DNA from: Rhizobium sp.
GTDB lineage: Bacteria > Pseudomonadota > Alphaproteobacteria > Rhizobiales > Rhizobiaceae
Assembly: GCA_028290545.1 (NCBI GenBank)
Contig: JAQGJP010000056.1
Location: 103,711-167,710 of the forward strand
Length of the DNA stretch: 64,000 bases
Direction: 5' to 3'
Below, in pieces: positions 2,114 to 49,293 of this stretch. How positions within the stretch are numbered: position 1 is the first letter of the stretch; each line of letters opens with the position of its first letter. The notes under the pieces were generated by a model. That model ran no database searches and was not told the DNA's origin. It saw only the letters and a program-made list of their open reading frames with translations. The translations under genes and the position numbers were made by a program.

Positions 2114-3039
2114 CGAGACGCCTCCTCGGAGAAGACTGGTCCGCCATAGCTGCGGGGAAGGGTGGAAATAGCGCGCGAAGCGATGGTGGTCGCGGCCTTC
2201 AGGCAGGCCTCAAGTGGCTCGTTCGCCGCCAGCGCGGCAAGGAATGCGGCGTTGAAGACATCGCCGGCGCCGATCGTGTCGACCACTGTGACTACCGGCG
2301 CATCGACCGCAACCAGCAGGCCATCGGCGCCGATGGCGATCGCTCCTTCAGGGCCGCGCTTGACGACGACGATCGCGCCATCCGGCATATGCGAGCGGAT
2401 TTCGCGCGCCGCCCCGATCGGGTCCGCCATCCCCGCAAGCGTCGTGGTCTCGATCTCGTTCAACAGCGAGATTCCGCAACGGGAGAGCCAGGAGCGGGTT
2501 GCCGCGCAGTTCGCCTCGGTCCAGCCATCGAGAGGCCAGCCGGTGTCGAGCGCCACGGTGATCCCGTGCTGGTCCGCCCAGTCAAACAGCGCCGGATATT
2601 CATTGGTGAGATCATCGGTCAGGAAGCCGGCGCACACCAAAGCGTAGCCGCCCGCAAGTGTGGTGCCGTCGATCACCGAAAATACATCCGCGAGACTGAA
2701 GCGCGGCAGGTGGCCACGCGTGGTGAAGAAGGTCCGCTCTCCGTCCGGATGGGTGATCCCGACCGATAGCGTCGTTTTTTCCCGGCTGACCGGCCATCTC
2801 GCCCCATGTGCGCCGAATGTCTCGCTCAACCAACGGCCGAACTGGTCATTGCCGACGCTTGCGGCGATCGCGTAATCGACGCCCAGCGCGTTCCAGACCA
2901 GCGCGCTGTTGCCCGCCTGGCCGCCGACGCGCAACTCGTCATGATCGACGATCACTTCCGTGCCGGCCTTCGGCCAGGGCTCGGCCGGTCCAAGAATGAG
3001 ATCGACATTGACATTGCCGATGACTGCCAGCGGTCTCAT
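2110..3039 (-). CDS. PfkB-family carbohydrate kinase (fructosamine kinase-like by context)
   Basis: VGGQAGNSALVWNALG and DTIGAGDVFNAAFLAAL PfkB signatures; overlaps ATPase gene by ATGA. Confidence 0.9.
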   Translation of the reverse strand: MRPLAVIGNVNVDLILGPAEPWPKAGTEVIVDHDELRVGGQAGNSALVWNALGVDYAIAASVGNDQFGRWLSETFGAHGARWPVSREKTTLSVGITHPDGERTFFTTRGHLPRFSLADVFSVIDGTTLAGGYALVCAGFLTDDLTNEYPALFDWADQHGITVALDTGWPLDGWTEANCAATRSWLSRCGISLLNEIETTTLAGMADPIGAAREIRSHMPDGAIVVVKRGPEGAIAIGADGLLVAVDAPVVTVVDTIGAGDVFNAAFLAALAANEPLEACLKAATTIASRAISTLPRSYGGPVFSEEASR

Positions 3040-4056
3040 TCATTCGCTCCGGGTGATCTTGGTCGAGCGGACCGGCGTTCCGGCGTTGTCGACGACGGCA
3101 TCGGCAAAAGCGGTCATCAGCCGCTGTGCCACCGGCAGCATGGCGAAGATCGCCGCAAGGCCGGTCGCAGGCTTGAACAGGATGGTATGCGCGCCCGTGA
3201 CCGGCGCCTTGCCGGAAGCGTCGAATACGATGACCGGCGCGCCGGTTTCAACCGCCGAAATCGCCATCGCCGTCACCAGGTCGGCAGTCTCATGGGTATC
3301 GCGAAACAGCACGACGGCGATCTGCGGCCCCAGCATTTCCATCGGCCCGTGGCGAAGCTGCCCGCCTTCGAGCGAAAAGCAGGGAAGCCGCGAAAGTTCG
3401 GTCAGGCCCAGCGCCAGAGCCTCGGCGATCCCCTGAAGGCGCCGGCCGGATGTGACGACGGTCGCGACATTGTCCAGCGCGGCGAGCGCGGGTTCGATAT
3501 CGGGCTCTTCAGGCGCATGCAGCGCGGCAAGTGCCTCGGCCGGATCTTCGCCGAGCGCGGCAAAAATCGCCAGGTGCAGCGCGAAGGTCACCGTCAGGCT
3601 GCGTGTCGCGGCAAAGGCCAATTCCGTGCCGCCGGCTCCAATCAGCGATGGCGCCGTTCTTGCCAGAAACGATCCGGCCTCCAGAGTCAGGCCGAAGGTG
3701 TCGGCAGTGCCGCCGATCTCGCTGAACCACCGGACGACTTCCGCGCTTTCGCCGGACTGCGAGGCAACCAAGATTGTCCGCCCCTCCAGCGCAAGCGGCT
3801 GGCCCAATTGCTCCGACAGCGGCAGGGCGATCGCATCGATGCCAAGCGAGCGGTACAACGGTTCGACGGCGCGGTTGACCGCATGCGATCCGCCCATGCC
3901 GAGCAGCAGCAACCGGCCGGTCTTCTTCAACGAGGCCGCAGCCTTGGCAGCCATTTCGGTCGCGCTTTTGTACGAGGCGACGGCATCCGCGTGCTGGCGG
4001 GCCATTTCGCGATCGATGGCGAGCAGTCCCGCCGGGCGATTGTCGTTTGAACTCAT
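3040..4056 (-). CDS. SIS-domain sugar isomerase/deglycase (FrlB/AgaS/GlmS-like)
   Basis: LLLLGMGGSHAVNRAVEP and ILVASQSGESAEVVRWF SIS motifs. Confidence 0.9.
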   Translation of the reverse strand: MSSNDNRPAGLLAIDREMARQHADAVASYKSATEMAAKAAASLKKTGRLLLLGMGGSHAVNRAVEPLYRSLGIDAIALPLSEQLGQPLALEGRTILVASQSGESAEVVRWFSEIGGTADTFGLTLEAGSFLARTAPSLIGAGGTELAFAATRSLTVTFALHLAIFAALGEDPAEALAALHAPEEPDIEPALAALDNVATVVTSGRRLQGIAEALALGLTELSRLPCFSLEGGQLRHGPMEMLGPQIAVVLFRDTHETADLVTAMAISAVETGAPVIVFDASGKAPVTGAHTILFKPATGLAAIFAMLPVAQRLMTAFADAVVDNAGTPVRSTKITRSE

Positions 4057-4058
4057 GC

Positions 4059-4904
4059 TTATCCCTTGACGCCGCCGCTGGTCAGCCCCGAAATCAGGGC
4101 GCGTTGTGTGAAAAGACCGATCAACACCGGTGGCAGGGCGGCAAGCACACCGGCGGTGGCGATCAGTCCGTAATCGGAAACGCGGCCGCCCGCCAGATCG
4201 GCGATGGCAACCGTAAGCGTCTTGGCGCGCTGATCGGACGTGAACAGCAGCGCATAGAAGAATTCATCCCAGGCCAGCAGGAAGGCGAACAGTGCCGAGG
4301 TCGCCACGACAGGCATGGCGAGCGGCAGGGTGATGATCCTGAGTGTCTGGAACAGGTTTGCGCCATCGATCATCGCCGCGGATTCGATTTCGCGAGGGAT
4401 GGAGTCGAAGCCCGATTTCATCAGCCAGGTCGTGAACGGCGCGAGGATGGTCAGGTAGACCAACGCCAGCCCGAAGACATTGTTGAGCATGCCGAGATGG
4501 GCGAGCCCCATGTAGAGAGGAACGGCCAGCGCCACCGGCGGCAGCATGTATGTGGCGATCACCATCGACAGCGACCAGCCGACCGACGGCGTGCGCGACA
4601 CGGCCCAGCCGGCGGGGATGGCAAGCGCGATCGCCGCGATCGTCGCCATGCCGGCAACCAGGATGCTGTTTTGCAGCGAGGACACGAAGGCGGCGCCGGC
4701 GCTGTTCTCGACCGTCGACAGAAGCTCCCGATAGCGCGAGAAATCGACGGTCTGGGGCCACCAGCGCAGCGGTTTTGCGGCGAGATCGGCGGCCGGCGAT
4801 ATGCTCATGATGAACAGCCAGAGGATCGGCGCAAGGATCACTGCCGCAAGCAGCAGCGCGCATGCATAAATGAAGGCGGTGAAAACAGGGTTCCTGCGTT
4901 CCAT
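4059..4904 (-). CDS. Carbohydrate ABC transporter permease (MalG-like)
   Basis: EESAAMIDGANLFQTLRIITLPLAMP (EAA-type) motif; start MERRNPVF at 4904. Confidence 0.9.
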   Translation of the reverse strand: MERRNPVFTAFIYACALLLAAVILAPILWLFIMSISPAADLAAKPLRWWPQTVDFSRYRELLSTVENSAGAAFVSSLQNSILVAGMATIAAIALAIPAGWAVSRTPSVGWSLSMVIATYMLPPVALAVPLYMGLAHLGMLNNVFGLALVYLTILAPFTTWLMKSGFDSIPREIESAAMIDGANLFQTLRIITLPLAMPVVATSALFAFLLAWDEFFYALLFTSDQRAKTLTVAIADLAGGRVSDYGLIATAGVLAALPPVLIGLFTQRALISGLTSGGVKG

Positions 4905-5788
4905 CAGGCGGCGCTCCCGGCTGTCTTGCGGACGAGTGCTGCATATCCGAGCGCCAGCAGTGTCACCAGAAGCGTGACGATCAGGGCCAGCGACGCGCCG
5001 GACCCGGCCCGCTGGAAGGAAAATGCTTCCTGGTAGACGAGAATTGACAAGCTTCGCGTGCTGTTGGCCGGCCCGCCACGGGTCATTATCCAGATGATGT
5101 CGAACACCTTGAAGGCCTCGATCGTCCGCAGCACCAATGCCACCATCAGCGGCCCCGCGAGATAGGGCAGGATCACGAACCGGAACCGGTTGAAGGCGCC
5201 CGCACCATCGACCAGCGATGCCGCGGTGATGTCGCGGGGCACCGCCTGCAGCGCGGCAAGGGCGATCAGAGCCACAAGCGGAAAGTTCTTCCAGCAGTCG
5301 GCGACGATCAGCGCCGTCATCGCCGTGCCCGGTTCGCCGAGCCAGGAACGATAATCGCCGAGAATGCCGATCTGCGTCAGCGCGGCGTTCAACGCGCCGT
5401 ATTCGGGATTGTAGATCAGCCGCCAGAGCGTCGCGTTGACCACGGTCGGCAGCGCCCAGGGCAGGATCAGCAGCGCGCGGAGCACGAAACGGCCCCGGAA
5501 TTCCTGATTGAGCAGCAGCGCTGCGAGCACGCCGATCACCATTTCGGCGGTGACGGAGATCACCGCGAACCAGGTCGTGGTGATCAGCGTCCGCTGGAAA
5601 TTTGCGCCGGCAAGCATCTTCACGTAATTGGCGGCGCCCACATAGTTGCCCTCGGTGCCGACAAGCCGGGCATCGGTGAAGGAGAGCCGGATAGTGTCGT
5701 AGAGCGGCCATCCGATGACGGCGATCATGACCACGAGGAGCGGCAGCATCAGGAGCCACGCGCGGGTTGTCATCCAGGTGCCGGACAT
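4904..5788 (-). CDS. Carbohydrate ABC transporter permease (MalF-like)
   Basis: TAASLVDGAGAFNRFRFVILPYLAGP EAA motif, multiple TM helices; abuts next permease. Confidence 0.9.
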   Translation of the reverse strand: MSGTWMTTRAWLLMLPLLVVMIAVIGWPLYDTIRLSFTDARLVGTEGNYVGAANYVKMLAGANFQRTLITTTWFAVISVTAEMVIGVLAALLLNQEFRGRFVLRALLILPWALPTVVNATLWRLIYNPEYGALNAALTQIGILGDYRSWLGEPGTAMTALIVADCWKNFPLVALIALAALQAVPRDITAASLVDGAGAFNRFRFVILPYLAGPLMVALVLRTIEAFKVFDIIWIMTRGGPANSTRSLSILVYQEAFSFQRAGSGASLALIVTLLVTLLALGYAALVRKTAGSAA

Positions 5789-44266: not shown

Positions 44267-44286
44267 ACCTCGCCTGCAGGCGAGGT
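44267..44286. terminator. 20-bp perfect palindrome between convergent ABC operon and YcaO locus
   Basis: ACCTCGCCTGCAGGCGAGGT equals its own reverse complement. Confidence 0.6.
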
Positions 44287-44317: not shown

Positions 44318-44551
44318 TCAGTGAAAAGCAGCCGGCACGCCGAGCTTGTCTTTCTTGGTCACCTTCTGCAGATCGACGCCATGCAATTCCATTTCCTCCA
44401 AAATCGCGGCCAGCGCCATGTCGAGGCAATAGGTCGGCATGTCGATCCGCAACTCGCTGGCGCTCTGGCGTGCGTGGGTTACCATTCGCGCCAATGCTGC
44501 GAGTTCCTTCGCGAAGTCGGTTTCATTAACTGTCGAGAGATCCTTGGTCAA
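44318..44551 (-). CDS. Small 77-aa protein at the 3' end of the YcaO-TfuA locus
   Basis: MTKDLSTVNETDFAKELAALARMVTHARQSASELRIDMPTYCLDMALAAILEEMELHGVDLQKVTKKDKLGVPAAFH; TTG start preceded by AGGGGG. Confidence 0.65.
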   Translation of the reverse strand: MTKDLSTVNETDFAKELAALARMVTHARQSASELRIDMPTYCLDMALAAILEEMELHGVDLQKVTKKDKLGVPAAFH

Positions 44552-44617
44552 TTTAGCCCCCTATTCATGCCATCCCAGAAAATTGCGATTGCATTGAAAA
44601 GTAATACAGATGGAGCG

Positions 44618-45382
44618 TCACATCAGCGTTACAGGACGCTTCTCCATATGATTGTATTGGCTGTCTCTGTCATTCTGTAGCAATTCATCCAACGACCGAG
44701 TTCGTGACAAATACCATTGCGGTTGACAAAAGTCAAAAATGGACGACGCTCCCTCGCTTTCGATCATCTGGAGGAGCAGAATTGCATCCTGCTTCTTCAC
44801 GTTGACACTGTTTGCTTTCAAGATGGCCGAGAGATCGGCCCTTCTTGCATTCGACAAATCGGCATTTTCGACAATTCTCCTATAGGTGCGATCCTTGAAA
44901 AACAGCGCGCGTGCAGTTGCCGCCAAGCCGTCATGCTCTTGCTGGTCGATGTGCCCGCTGGTCCGAAGCTCTCGCAAAGTCGCAATGACGTTTACCAGCG
45001 GTTCGCTCAGCGGCAGGTAACCCAGCTCTTTCGGACCATGCAACTGGGCCACATCCCCGTCGTCCTGCGCCTCCCCGCCGACATAGGCCTGGAATACCTG
45101 GCCCACGCCGATCATGCCGAAGGCATGACATTCGGCGGCGCGCAGCGCCCCCATGCTGGCGGCACCCAGCACGGCCACGCCTTCCGAGATCGCGAAGAGG
45201 ATTTCCTTGTGCCATACCGAAGGTTGCAGTTCGAATACACCGTCGATCAGCCCTATGATCGACGCGCCATCCCTGACGGCGCGGATCAGGTCGCCGCGTT
45301 TGGCGGGTTGGCGAAACTCAAGGTTGCGATACCCGTCCAGCGCTATGCCGCGCAGGGTTGGGCCAGCAAAGATGATCTTCAT
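44618..45382 (-). CDS. tfuA: TfuA-like protein (YcaO partner)
   Basis: IIGLIDGVFELQPSVWHKEILFAISEGVAVLGAASMGALRAAECHAFGMIGVGQVFQAYVGGE, canonical TfuA core; ATGA overlap with ycaO. Confidence 0.93.
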   Translation of the reverse strand: MKIIFAGPTLRGIALDGYRNLEFRQPAKRGDLIRAVRDGASIIGLIDGVFELQPSVWHKEILFAISEGVAVLGAASMGALRAAECHAFGMIGVGQVFQAYVGGEAQDDGDVAQLHGPKELGYLPLSEPLVNVIATLRELRTSGHIDQQEHDGLAATARALFFKDRTYRRIVENADLSNARRADLSAILKANSVNVKKQDAILLLQMIESEGASSIFDFCQPQWYLSRTRSLDELLQNDRDSQYNHMEKRPVTLM

Positions 45383-46668
45383 TCGCGCCTCATCATTCGG
45401 GACAGAGCGCGTCCGCCAAAACGCGCCCGGCGATCTCCGGGGGGATTTTCGAGCTGCGGCACAAGCACCTTGACCACGGAAAAAGCAGCGTCCAATGGGT
45501 TCAACGGTACCACGACGACTGACGTGACCGCCTGACGCGTCAGAGCCTGCAAAGTCAGCCGCAATTTCCCGGATAAGGTGTTATTCGCATATCGACAGAA
45601 CTTGACGATAACCGGTTCGATAGCGAAATCCTCGATCAGGCTCGATGGCATCGGCCGCGCGTAGAGCTCTTCCGCGATATCGTCCCGGGCACCGCCGATC
45701 AGCGCCAGACGCGATTGTGCCGCCTCCGTGATCGCACGAATGGCGGCGCGAACCGGGTCGGGATGGCAGCCGCTGCCATTGGCGGCCTCGGCATACAGGA
45801 TATTCCGCCGCTGCCGGATATCATGGGGTCCGATCAGTGCCGAGAAGCATGGAATGCCGATATCGCTGGTTACATCGAAAAGCCGCAGCAAAAGGCCGGC
45901 CTGGTGGATTTTCGTCGCAAGTGCGCTGATGACCGGATCATTGAAACCTGATGGATCGACGCAGTTCCCCGCCCGTTCTCCCGGCTTTGCGAATGACCAG
46001 AGTGCTTCCGCATCGCGTTCGATGCGTTCCAGAAGACCGTGGAAAGTCGCCTCCAAAGGTGTGTTGCCCGAGGCCAGGCCATCGGACGATTGCCAGAAAC
46101 GCGCCTCCGCCGTGCGATCCAGCATCACCGCCTCCAATGGCACGCAGACCGGTCGCCCGCCGATCAGGTCATAGCCTTCGACCCAGCAGACCATGTCACT
46201 TTCGGCGATTGCCGTCTTTCCCCTGGCGATCAGGCAGTTCAGAGGATCGACGGCCCGGCCGGCGGCTTGCATTCCGGCCAGCGACGCTGTGTGCGCAGCT
46301 ATTTGCGGCGCCCCGGCGACCGCACGCTCGAAGGCCTCCATGACGGCCGATATCCTGGCGTCGGCGTCGTCGATGCCTTTGCCCTGATTGACGGCAAGCG
46401 ACAACGAGTTCGGCCGGATTGCGCTCCAGACCGGAATGCCCAGCCGATCCAGTCCCGTCTGCCGCGCGACACGCGTTACGCCATATCGGGCGAGCAGAGG
46501 GGAAACTCTGGCGAATGTGTCATTGGATGAGCAGGCGCGATCCGAGTAGTGCTGCCGATGTCCGACTTCAGCCTCGCCACGCATGGCAGAGGCGGAATCC
46601 AGACCAAGGAGTGCCCCGAATTCGCTGGTTCCAGTGGGATCAGGTATCGTATTTGCCTGCAAAGGCAT
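45379..46668 (-). CDS. YcaO-domain cyclodehydratase/thioamidase-like protein (start uncertain: ORF open to 46752, alternatives ATG 46668 or 46584)
   Basis: RVSPLLARYGVTRVARQTGLDRLGIPVWSAIRPNSLSLAVNQGKG, ISAVMEAFERA, GLLERIERDAEALW, AIRAITEAAQSRL; no C-terminal PxPxP. Confidence 0.92.
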   Translation of the reverse strand: MPLQANTIPDPTGTSEFGALLGLDSASAMRGEAEVGHRQHYSDRACSSNDTFARVSPLLARYGVTRVARQTGLDRLGIPVWSAIRPNSLSLAVNQGKGIDDADARISAVMEAFERAVAGAPQIAAHTASLAGMQAAGRAVDPLNCLIARGKTAIAESDMVCWVEGYDLIGGRPVCVPLEAVMLDRTAEARFWQSSDGLASGNTPLEATFHGLLERIERDAEALWSFAKPGERAGNCVDPSGFNDPVISALATKIHQAGLLLRLFDVTSDIGIPCFSALIGPHDIRQRRNILYAEAANGSGCHPDPVRAAIRAITEAAQSRLALIGGARDDIAEELYARPMPSSLIEDFAIEPVIVKFCRYANNTLSGKLRLTLQALTRQAVTSVVVVPLNPLDAAFSVVKVLVPQLENPPGDRRARFGGRALSRMMRRE

Positions 46669-46858
46669 CGTCGCGGGTGAGTGTTGCAACGGCGACATCG
46701 ACACCGCTGACATAGGCAGCCCCGCTGGTATTTGCCGCTGCGGTATAGCCAAACGGATCAGGAACGATAGTATCCATCGCGGTTACCGACCCGTTATCAA
46801 AATCCACAAGCCAGTAGCCGCTCTCATCACTCAGTTTAAGAACCACGAATTTCGACAT
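46640..46858 (-). CDS. 72-aa Cys-free peptide directly upstream of ycaO; candidate RiPP precursor
   Basis: MSKFVVLKLSDESGYWLVDFDNGSVTAMDTIVPDPFGYTAAANTSGAAYVSGVDVAVATLTRDDAFAGKYDT; AGGAGG 8 nt before ATG 46858; stop just upstream of/overlapping ycaO start. Confidence 0.8.
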   Translation of the reverse strand: MSKFVVLKLSDESGYWLVDFDNGSVTAMDTIVPDPFGYTAAANTSGAAYVSGVDVAVATLTRDDAFAGKYDT

Positions 46859-46881
46859 ATGCATACCCTCCTATGTTGATG

Positions 46882-48801
46882 CTATGAAAAACCTGCTTTG
46901 CGCAGGCCTTCGCGATATTGATCTTTCTGCCATTGCTCGCGGATCGGCATGATCGACAGCCACTTCTCGATTTCGAAATCGGGATGTGTCGCCATGGTCC
47001 GGCGCTTGTAGGCGTGGGCTTTCTTGCGATCGCCGAGCATCCCCCAGCACGCTGCGGCCACGCGCGAAATATGCGACTGGTCCTCCATCCGGGCAAGGCA
47101 GGCGAGCGCCTCATCATAGCGCTCCAGGCAGTAATTGGCGCCTGCGGCTGTCCAGTGATAGACATCCGGCGCCAGCGGATTGAGCTGGATCGCCATTTCG
47201 ATTTTCGCAAGTCCCCGTACAGGGTCGGACGAGTGGATCAGGGTATCGGCATAGTCGGCAATCAGATCCGCGTGGCAGGGAGATACGTCCTCGGCCTTTT
47301 CGAATGCCGCGATGCTTTCGTCGAATTGCCCCTGGAAGAGCTTGGCGACGCCAAGTTCGCGATAGCCGCCGGCGCTTTCGCCATGGGTGTTGATGGCATG
47401 GCCGGCGAACTGCTCGGCGGATTTGAGCAATTCGTGATCGCCACGCGCGGTCAGCAGCCATTCCATGTGGTCGGTGCGGGCAAGTCCCGCCAGTGCAGCC
47501 GAGAAATGCGGATCCTGATTGACGGCCCTGCGAAATGCTTTTCGGGCAGCTCTTGTCTCGGGCAGGTCGATCCTCTTGAGGAGTCTCTGTCCAATCAGGT
47601 AATGCTGATAGGCATTGGGATGCTGTTCGACGCCGAGACGCTCAAGTTCGTTTCGCTCGACCTGAGCCGCCACCGATCCCACGATCCGTCTTCCGATTGC
47701 ATGATATTGTTGCGAAAGCGTGTCCAGCCGCGCATCGAAGCGCTCCGCCCACACAGTCGAGTCATTTCTGACATCCACGAGTTGGGCAAACAGCAGGTCG
47801 CCGCCTTGCGCACTCAATCTCGTATCGAGAACATAGGAGATCCTGTGCAGATCATAAGCCTTTGCCCGATCGGCCTCGATCGCAATGCGGCCTGACGTAT
47901 GCGGCGCCACGACGGAGATTGTCTTGAATGTGCAAAGGCCGAGCGTCACGTCTTCCAGCAGTCCCGGAACAAAGCTTTCGGTTCCGGCATTCGTTGGTGG
48001 CATGAGCGCCACACGCGGCAAATGGGTTTTATAGCCTGGGCTGATCGGGTTATCGGCAGCTTCGACGATCGGCTTGGCTTGCGGTTCGACGGCCGAGATG
48101 TTTCGCAGAAGGTCGAGCGTCGATTTTTCAGGGGAGGCCTGCAGGTCGTCCCACAAGCGGCTCTTCCACCTTGCGAACTCTGCCCGGGCCGGATTGAGTT
48201 GCCCGATCGCAGCATAGGCCTGCATCAGGATACGAACGGCTGCCTCGCAATGCGGGTCGATCTGCAGCAGGCGGAATGCCCCTTCCTTGACGAGTTGATT
48301 GTGCGCGACAATATCGTCGGCGACAACCCCTTCCAGCGCTGCGGTGAAGCGGCTTAGAACAACGGCACGCTGTGCTTCAATCCAGCCGCGACCGCGATCC
48401 GAGAAATGATCGACGCCGGCGAGAAATTGCCCCCGGCAATTGTCCATGAAGACTCCGAGCCGCAAGACAGGATCCGCTGGCGCAGTCTCCATGGCGGCGG
48501 AGTCACTATCGATGGCGCTGATGTTCAGGCTGACAGTCGCGTCGGTCGCAATCAGCAGTTCGGTTCCAAGCTCGGCTTGATGGCCCTTGACACGGGAAAG
48601 AAGCGTCCTGAGGTTCGCCGAGGCGCGGGCGGGTTCGACCTCTTCCCAGAGAAATTGCGCAATGTCGCTGCGGGTCCGCACTGATCCCTTTGTCGTCAGA
48701 AGATAACAAATGGTGATCAGCGCTTTTTCGGGATAGGGCACCGTCCTGCCGACGGAATCGGTCAGCCGCAGGTCACCAGATGTAACCAATCGAAAGACCA
48801 A
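46882..48801 (-). CDS. SARP/BTAD-type transcriptional regulator with TolB-like and TPR regions
   Basis: N-terminal winged helix (LRLTDSVGRTVPYPEKALITICYLLTT), BTAD-like helices, VALMPPTNAGTESFVPGLLEDVTLGL, C-terminal TPRs. Confidence 0.82.
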   Translation of the reverse strand: MVFRLVTSGDLRLTDSVGRTVPYPEKALITICYLLTTKGSVRTRSDIAQFLWEEVEPARASANLRTLLSRVKGHQAELGTELLIATDATVSLNISAIDSDSAAMETAPADPVLRLGVFMDNCRGQFLAGVDHFSDRGRGWIEAQRAVVLSRFTAALEGVVADDIVAHNQLVKEGAFRLLQIDPHCEAAVRILMQAYAAIGQLNPARAEFARWKSRLWDDLQASPEKSTLDLLRNISAVEPQAKPIVEAADNPISPGYKTHLPRVALMPPTNAGTESFVPGLLEDVTLGLCTFKTISVVAPHTSGRIAIEADRAKAYDLHRISYVLDTRLSAQGGDLLFAQLVDVRNDSTVWAERFDARLDTLSQQYHAIGRRIVGSVAAQVERNELERLGVEQHPNAYQHYLIGQRLLKRIDLPETRAARKAFRRAVNQDPHFSAALAGLARTDHMEWLLTARGDHELLKSAEQFAGHAINTHGESAGGYRELGVAKLFQGQFDESIAAFEKAEDVSPCHADLIADYADTLIHSSDPVRGLAKIEMAIQLNPLAPDVYHWTAAGANYCLERYDEALACLARMEDQSHISRVAAACWGMLGDRKKAHAYKRRTMATHPDFEIEKWLSIMPIREQWQKDQYREGLRKAGFS

Positions 48802-48822
48802 AAAACCCTCCCGATAAAAGTG

Positions 48823-49293
48823 CTATGAAATTCGAGTTCCGTGCAGCGAAAGTATGCGCGACTGACCGGCAGGGTCCGCCGTGATCATAAGCTCGGTACG
48901 CGAAAGCGACTCAATAAATGTAATTATGGACTGACGAACAGTTGGATCTTTAATGCGAACGAAGGCTTGATTGAGCTTGAGGCCGTCTGCATTTGCGAGA
49001 TATTGCATGACCGTGTTGCTTTCGGCATTGCGAAGCTCGATGCCGATGGTGCTGGCTGGCAGATCATCGCCGTCGCGGAAGAAGAAGCTGACGGGAACGC
49101 CCAGAACGCGGGCAATCTCCTGCAGGCGGCTGGCGCCGATGCGGTTCGTGCCCTTCTCGTATTTCTGGACCTGCTGGAATGTTATGTTCAGCGCGCCGGC
49201 CAAGGTGCTCTGACTCATTCCCAGAACCTGACGCTGTAGCCTTACGCGCGCGCCGACAAAGGTATCGATGGGGTTGGGCGACTTTACTGACAT
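48823..49293 (-). CDS. XRE-family transcriptional regulator
   Basis: VGARVRLQRQVLGMSQSTLAGALNITFQQVQKYEKGTNRIGASRLQEIARVLGVPVSFFF. Confidence 0.93.
   Translation of the reverse strand: MSVKSPNPIDTFVGARVRLQRQVLGMSQSTLAGALNITFQQVQKYEKGTNRIGASRLQEIARVLGVPVSFFFRDGDDLPASTIGIELRNAESNTVMQYLANADGLKLNQAFVRIKDPTVRQSIITFIESLSRTELMITADPAGQSRILSLHGTRIS

Follow-up and report, generated by a model that had tools for sequence, protein, structure and literature searches.

A putative thioamidated-RiPP locus of rhizobia with a repeat-bearing precursor family and an often split gene layout

We analysed a 64,000-nucleotide stretch of Rhizobium sp. DNA (the window) and found six consecutive minus-strand genes that probably constitute a thioamidated-RiPP system, a reading to which we assign a probability of roughly 0.78. 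A first-pass annotation had proposed a candidate system of this type, and the proposal is supported by the conservation of a small peptide gene beside the YcaO-TfuA pair and by tandem core repeats in related peptides. The locus holds the parts that define the class, namely a thioamide-type YcaO adjoining TfuA and a short leader-core precursor encoded with the enzymes, and we infer that the peptide is thioamidated. Against this reading stand the lack of a dedicated protease or transporter, a leader that resembles none of the families in the searched libraries, and the absence of the S-G core motif from the most distant members of the peptide family (L130-L135).

All six ORFs described in the first-pass annotation were located between positions 44318 and 49293, in the order XRE, BTAD/TPR, peptide, YcaO, TfuA and 77-aa protein (Table 1), and all six are intact in the window. 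The YcaO stop and the TfuA start share an ATGA overlap, as had been noted. The longest YcaO ORF spans 45379-46752, with a TTG at 46752; homology begins near 46548, and the probable start is an ATG at 46668. The window genome carries a single TfuA and a single copy of the 72-aa peptide. Searches of Pfam and NCBIfam detected no RRE, protease, transporter or dehydrogenase in the six genes, in agreement with the earlier reading, and no specific family of transporter, protease or extra tailoring gene recurred near the locus in 38 dereplicated relatives, so that the description "minimal system" extends to the relatives too. Neighbourhood clustering of these 38 loci gave one large cluster (16 loci), whose representative resembles a shadow ORF joined via a common superfamily. 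The locus is flanked by a sugar-type ABC transporter gene on the opposite strand and by phospholipase D-like and LPG-synthase-like genes, none of which recurred with it in the dereplicated relatives. A perfect 7-bp inverted repeat (CCTCGCC-TGCA-GGCGAGG, 44268-44285) lies in the gap that separates the 77-aa gene from the ABC transporter gene convergent with it; this repeat is a possible terminator that the terminator scan did not flag.

Table 1 Genes of the six-gene locus, in window coordinates.
Feature	Coordinates	Strand	Evidence
XRE (HTH_3) regulator, 156 aa	48823..49293	minus	HTH_3 9.3e-12 (Pfam)
BTAD/TPR (SARP-like) regulator, 639 aa, TTG start	46882..48801	minus	BTAD 1.6e-6, TPR_19 2.7e-9 (Pfam)
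Putative RiPP precursor peptide, 72 aa	46640..46858	minus	Family conserved in Rhizobiaceae, core repeats in relatives, purifying selection
YcaO, thioamide-type	45379..46668 (start uncertain)	minus	PF02624 5.2e-66 (Pfam)
TfuA, 254 aa, presumed sulfur-delivery partner	44618..45382	minus	PF07812 1.5e-43 (Pfam)
77-aa protein, TTG start, helical hairpin (predicted)	44318..44551	minus	AlphaFold model

HMM searches, which the first-pass annotation had proposed as a check, make the YcaO and TfuA assignments certain by Pfam (Table 1). In profile comparisons, YcaO matched MJ1094, a McrA-type thioamidation YcaO of solved structure, at 1e-56 over nearly the whole length of MJ1094, against 6e-20 and 1e-18 for the azoline formers TruD and LynD. 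The acidic ATP-site motifs that had been recognised in YcaO (MEAFERA, ERIERDA and TEAAQSR) align throughout with MJ1094, and its C-terminus (...GRALSRMMRRE) indeed lacks a PxPxP tail. TfuA matched the solved TfuA homologue 6xp8 at 1.7e-49. By sequence comparison, the two proteins are closer to the archaeal pair that thioamidates the McrA glycine than to azoline formers. Assignment to the McrA equivalogs was rejected: YcaO reached 199.4 bits against TIGR03266 (McrA-glycine thioamidation YcaO; cut-off 365) and TfuA 196.7 bits (3e-58) against NF033432 (the corresponding TfuA; cut-off 235.2), and since both lie below the curated cut-offs they are homologues, not members. YcaO also fell below the cut-off of the SagD-family model (116 versus 219 bits). 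TfuA has been described as a hydrolase acting with thiocarboxylated ThiS-like carriers (PMC13063428).

The 72-aa peptide belongs to a family of 114 distinct sequences, single- and multi-core, whose anatomy, as read from alignments and models, is that of a RiPP precursor: a conserved beta-rich leader followed by C-terminal core repeats. Neither this peptide nor the 77-aa protein had a match in Pfam or NCBIfam, or a significant one among PDB sequences. The N-terminal half is conserved as M-[SA]-K-x-V-V-I-G-x-x-G-E-x-x-L-W-L-A-D-L-x-A-G-T-V. The model has three beta strands there and a mostly unstructured C-terminus of low confidence (mean pLDDT 63), the alignments for structure prediction having been built without the rows from plasmid records. 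The window peptide ends in the core ...DDAFAGKYDT, and the consensus of the core unit is [AV]-x-S/A-G-[HKR]-x-D-[GST]. This C-terminal unit occurs in tandem in many relatives, with up to ~6 copies, as six SGRMDEGP-type units (L022), four FSGKLEA units (L086), three GGYMD units each (L105, L114) or LHE repeat units (L107). Long type II precursors (L004, L009, L014, L018, L020, L025) are built on a 23-24-aa repeat unit (DVAVGFEPKEAAFSGHVFRSPG), with six 23-aa units in L014. Repeat scores exceeded all 300 shuffles in most long precursors, and the core motif was found 117 times in the tails, against 8.9 expected from shuffled tails, and once in the leaders. Glycine occupies the core position in 92 of the 94 first motif copies, under a motif definition that permits only G, S, A or N there. 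The peptide is under purifying selection, with a pooled dN/dS of 0.17 for the leader and 0.14 for the core. The type II precursors have no BTAD gene ahead on the same strand, and those of L009 and L020 are oriented divergently to a pair formed by BTAD and a type I peptide.

YcaO enzymes form azolines and amidines among other products, and the peptide could be a RiPP carrying one of these modifications in place of a thioamide. Two rhizobial peptides, trifolitoxin and phazolicin, belong to the azol(in)e type (PMC9670871), and in most cores here a Ser stands before the Gly. However, Cys accounts for 3 of the 3382 residues in the tails, and 15 copies of the motif are free of nearby Ser, Thr and Cys; together these figures argue that azoline formation is not the general chemistry, and as such it was rejected. 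The E1-like/RRE cyclodehydratase partner domain that marks azoline RiPPs (LAP/TOMM) is absent from the six genes, as is a dehydrogenase, TfuA was present in every genome tested for it, and YcaO is closer to MJ1094 than to TruD or LynD. We consider azoline or amidine chemistry very improbable. The cores without Ser, Thr and Cys, among them repeats of L022, L107 and L114, would be clean substrates with which to tell thioamidation from azoline chemistry.

Scanning species genomes with a YcaO profile yielded 80 related loci. The first-pass annotation had held that it would be contradicted if the peptide were not conserved beside YcaO-TfuA; the peptide adjoins YcaO in 63 of the 80, across many species. 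The neighbourhood analysis it had suggested shows all six genes in 44 of the 80 loci, with hosts in the Hyphomicrobiales; in this tally one locus (L077) was counted without TfuA and has a TfuA match in an overlapping long frame. A chance ORF was rejected as an account of the peptide, given this joint occurrence of the six genes and the purifying selection. Hosts include Rhizobium, Sinorhizobium/Ensifer, Neorhizobium, Mesorhizobium, Phyllobacterium, Hoeflea, Ciceribacter and Pleomorphomonas, and the peptide was found by tblastn in 22 rhizobial plasmid records. In whole-genome samples it was present in 49 of 299 genomes of the family and in 27 of 348 of the order (7 of these weak, E 1e-10 to 3e-4), and across the class in none of 337 genomes besides that of the window. 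Within the genomes sampled, the system is restricted to Hyphomicrobiales. The peptide and the YcaO clade of this locus occurred in the identical 49 of the 299 family genomes, a coincidence whose weight is overstated by shared ancestry and for which the YcaO score cut was chosen after the scores were seen; independently, a tree also groups these YcaOs as a clade (support 99/96), and the clade next in score has a different peptide.

Two further rhizobial YcaO clades were observed. The sister clade, in Rhizobiaceae (L159, L174-L176, L188-L190), shows BTAD, then a 42-47-aa peptide (e.g. MKTNETAQTVRLSPAAQAILKQQTVTVDSNATSNIVHAVRFR), then YcaO-TfuA, and this peptide is apparently a second, undescribed precursor family. 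In the third clade (L178-L187, L191-L193), YcaO is mostly paired with TfuA, several loci have a long TfuA ORF (up to ~440 aa), several have a nearby TPR/BTAD-like gene on the opposite strand, and no recognisable peptide ORF was seen upstream.

The earlier picture of one compact locus holds for the 44 loci with all six genes, but elsewhere the unit is often split over two or three loci. YcaO lacks an adjacent peptide in 17 of the 80 loci, some of which retain a remnant of the BTAD start or a decayed peptide. A peptide was found elsewhere in the genome for 17 of these 17, against a background of 16%, although genomes of one family are not independent and shared ancestry makes this count, like the 49 of 49 above, overstate its statistical weight. 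For 15 of the 17, the distant peptide forms a BTAD-peptide pair with no YcaO within ~5 kb on each side (less at contig ends). Similarly, TfuA was present elsewhere in 17 of 17 tested genomes that have none at the YcaO locus, as an XRE-TfuA pair in five Sinorhizobium/Ensifer genomes and divergent from the BTAD-peptide pair in others; some of these displaced copies may serve other YcaOs. Repeated dispersal with no partner lost is what a functional link predicts. Two genomes with a complete cluster (L119, L125) also carry a second BTAD-peptide copy without YcaO (L120, L126), possibly an additional precursor for one enzyme pair.

These distributions also bear on whether the peptide is a substrate at all. 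It might be an accessory or regulatory small protein, with YcaO-TfuA thioamidating a cellular protein: the nearest solved YcaO is a McrA-type enzyme, E. coli YcaO modifies ribosomal protein uL16 (PMC13063428), the peptides with a single core are uniform and subject to purifying selection, and some YcaO loci have lost the adjacent peptide. However, each of the 17 loci without the peptide is matched by one elsewhere in the genome, repeats confined to the C-terminal unit are hard to square with a chaperone or regulator, and the patchy distribution (49 of 299, 27 of 348) does not fit a housekeeping modification. We regard this alternative as distinctly unlikely. That the clusters are decaying or cryptic remnants without present function is scarcely credible: decay is evident in a few loci (L008, the first copy of L004, L041, L043 and L079), whereas none of the six genes is broken in the window, purifying selection acts on leader and core, and a part that a locus lacks has a counterpart elsewhere in the genome. 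In the decaying loci, TfuA is broken into overlapping frames both in the first L004 copy (2730-5169) and in L008, where YcaO is broken too, and BTAD/peptide remnants adjoin an intact YcaO-TfuA in L041, L043 and L079.

We infer that XRE and BTAD/TPR regulate the operon. The dedicated regulators claimed at first pass do belong to the conserved unit, together with the 77-aa protein, but are not always adjacent. In most relatives the BTAD/TPR gene immediately precedes the peptide gene, and it does so also at loci that lack YcaO. Of the 49 family genomes that have the peptide, 43 encode the 77-aa protein, compared with 6 of the 250 in which the peptide is absent; the AlphaFold model of the 77-aa protein consists of two long helices (hairpin pLDDT ~87-96), for which Foldseek returned no match below E 1.8. 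A tentative and rather unlikely extension is that the thioamidated peptide acts as a signal inside the cell, which it either never leaves or re-enters, and is read by the BTAD/TPR regulator, whose gene accompanies that of the peptide even where YcaO and TfuA are located elsewhere. Such a system, if real, would parallel the TPR peptide receptors in a Gram-negative setting: its ligand would be thioamidated in the backbone, and it would be assembled in trans from scattered genomic loci.

Under the thioamidated-RiPP reading, XRE and BTAD/TPR would control an operon encoding a short precursor, which YcaO would bind through the leader. YcaO would then use ATP to activate an amide in the core backbone, and TfuA would deliver sulfide, resulting in replacement of O by S at that amide. 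By analogy with McrA thioglycine, the near-invariant core Gly is perhaps the likeliest modified residue and would be the preferred site. A housekeeping protease could subsequently free one core, or several in multi-core relatives.

In the literature searched, the main texts of papers open without subscription, we found no description of this precursor family or of the split layout, and none joining TfuA with BTAD. Given that scope, the family has likely been detected earlier without a label, e.g. in RiPPER networks. Previous counts put rhizobial YcaO-TfuA clusters in the hundreds, and no substrate or product for them was found described in that literature; the precursor family and the split layout are apparently new. 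The family offers a concrete candidate substrate for some of these unexplained pairs, and a defined family with a predicted core motif and a candidate residue makes Gram-negative peptide thioamidation directly testable. Owing to the split layout, RiPP mining confined to the surroundings of the enzyme would overlook the precursor at about one fifth of loci (17 of 80). The hosts of the conserved set are soil and root-nodule bacteria, and the product is probably a small sulfur-modified peptide.

Among known systems, trifolitoxin (tfx) and phazolicin (phz) are likewise rhizobial YcaO-type RiPPs, but they are azol(in)e peptides with clusters of their own (tfxABCDEFG, phzEACBDR), whose azoline partner genes are absent from this locus. 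The title of Breil 1996, as referenced in PMC9670871, presents tfuA as a gene involved in trifolitoxin production, which agrees with the origin given in the first-pass annotation. In the same host group, the main text of Malit et al. 2021 (PMC8120280) reports >500 YcaO-TfuA clusters in Rhizobium by antiSMASH and lists CCRG-2-, berninamycin- and Nif11-like precursors for rhizobial genera; the present family is very likely among those clusters. That main text names no BTAD regulator, and no split layout was seen in the sections covered. For both enzymes, the archaeal McrA-glycine pair (TIGR03266, NF033432; PMC5589413) supplies the closest curated families and the closest solved structures, and Gly may, by analogy, be the target in both systems; there, however, the substrate is a large enzyme with no peptide gene, and the rhizobial proteins score below the cut-offs.

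In the thiovarsolin system (varA-varY-varT, Streptomyces varsoviensis), precursor, YcaO and TfuA suffice for thiovarsolin B, and related precursors range from non-repeating to five repeats (PMC6511847). The present system has this minimal set in common with it, likewise shows a spread of precursors from non-repeating ones to ones with several imperfect core repeats, and is predicted here to give a short linear product. Membership in the thiovarsolin family was rejected, since none of the 114 listed peptides carries APR-type (VarA-like) repeats. The two systems differ in precursor family, leader and core (APR there, SGHxDG here), heme oxygenase, ATP-grasp and other genes there contrast with XRE, BTAD/TPR and the 77-aa protein here, and the system described here resides in Gram-negative hosts, often in a genome-split layout.
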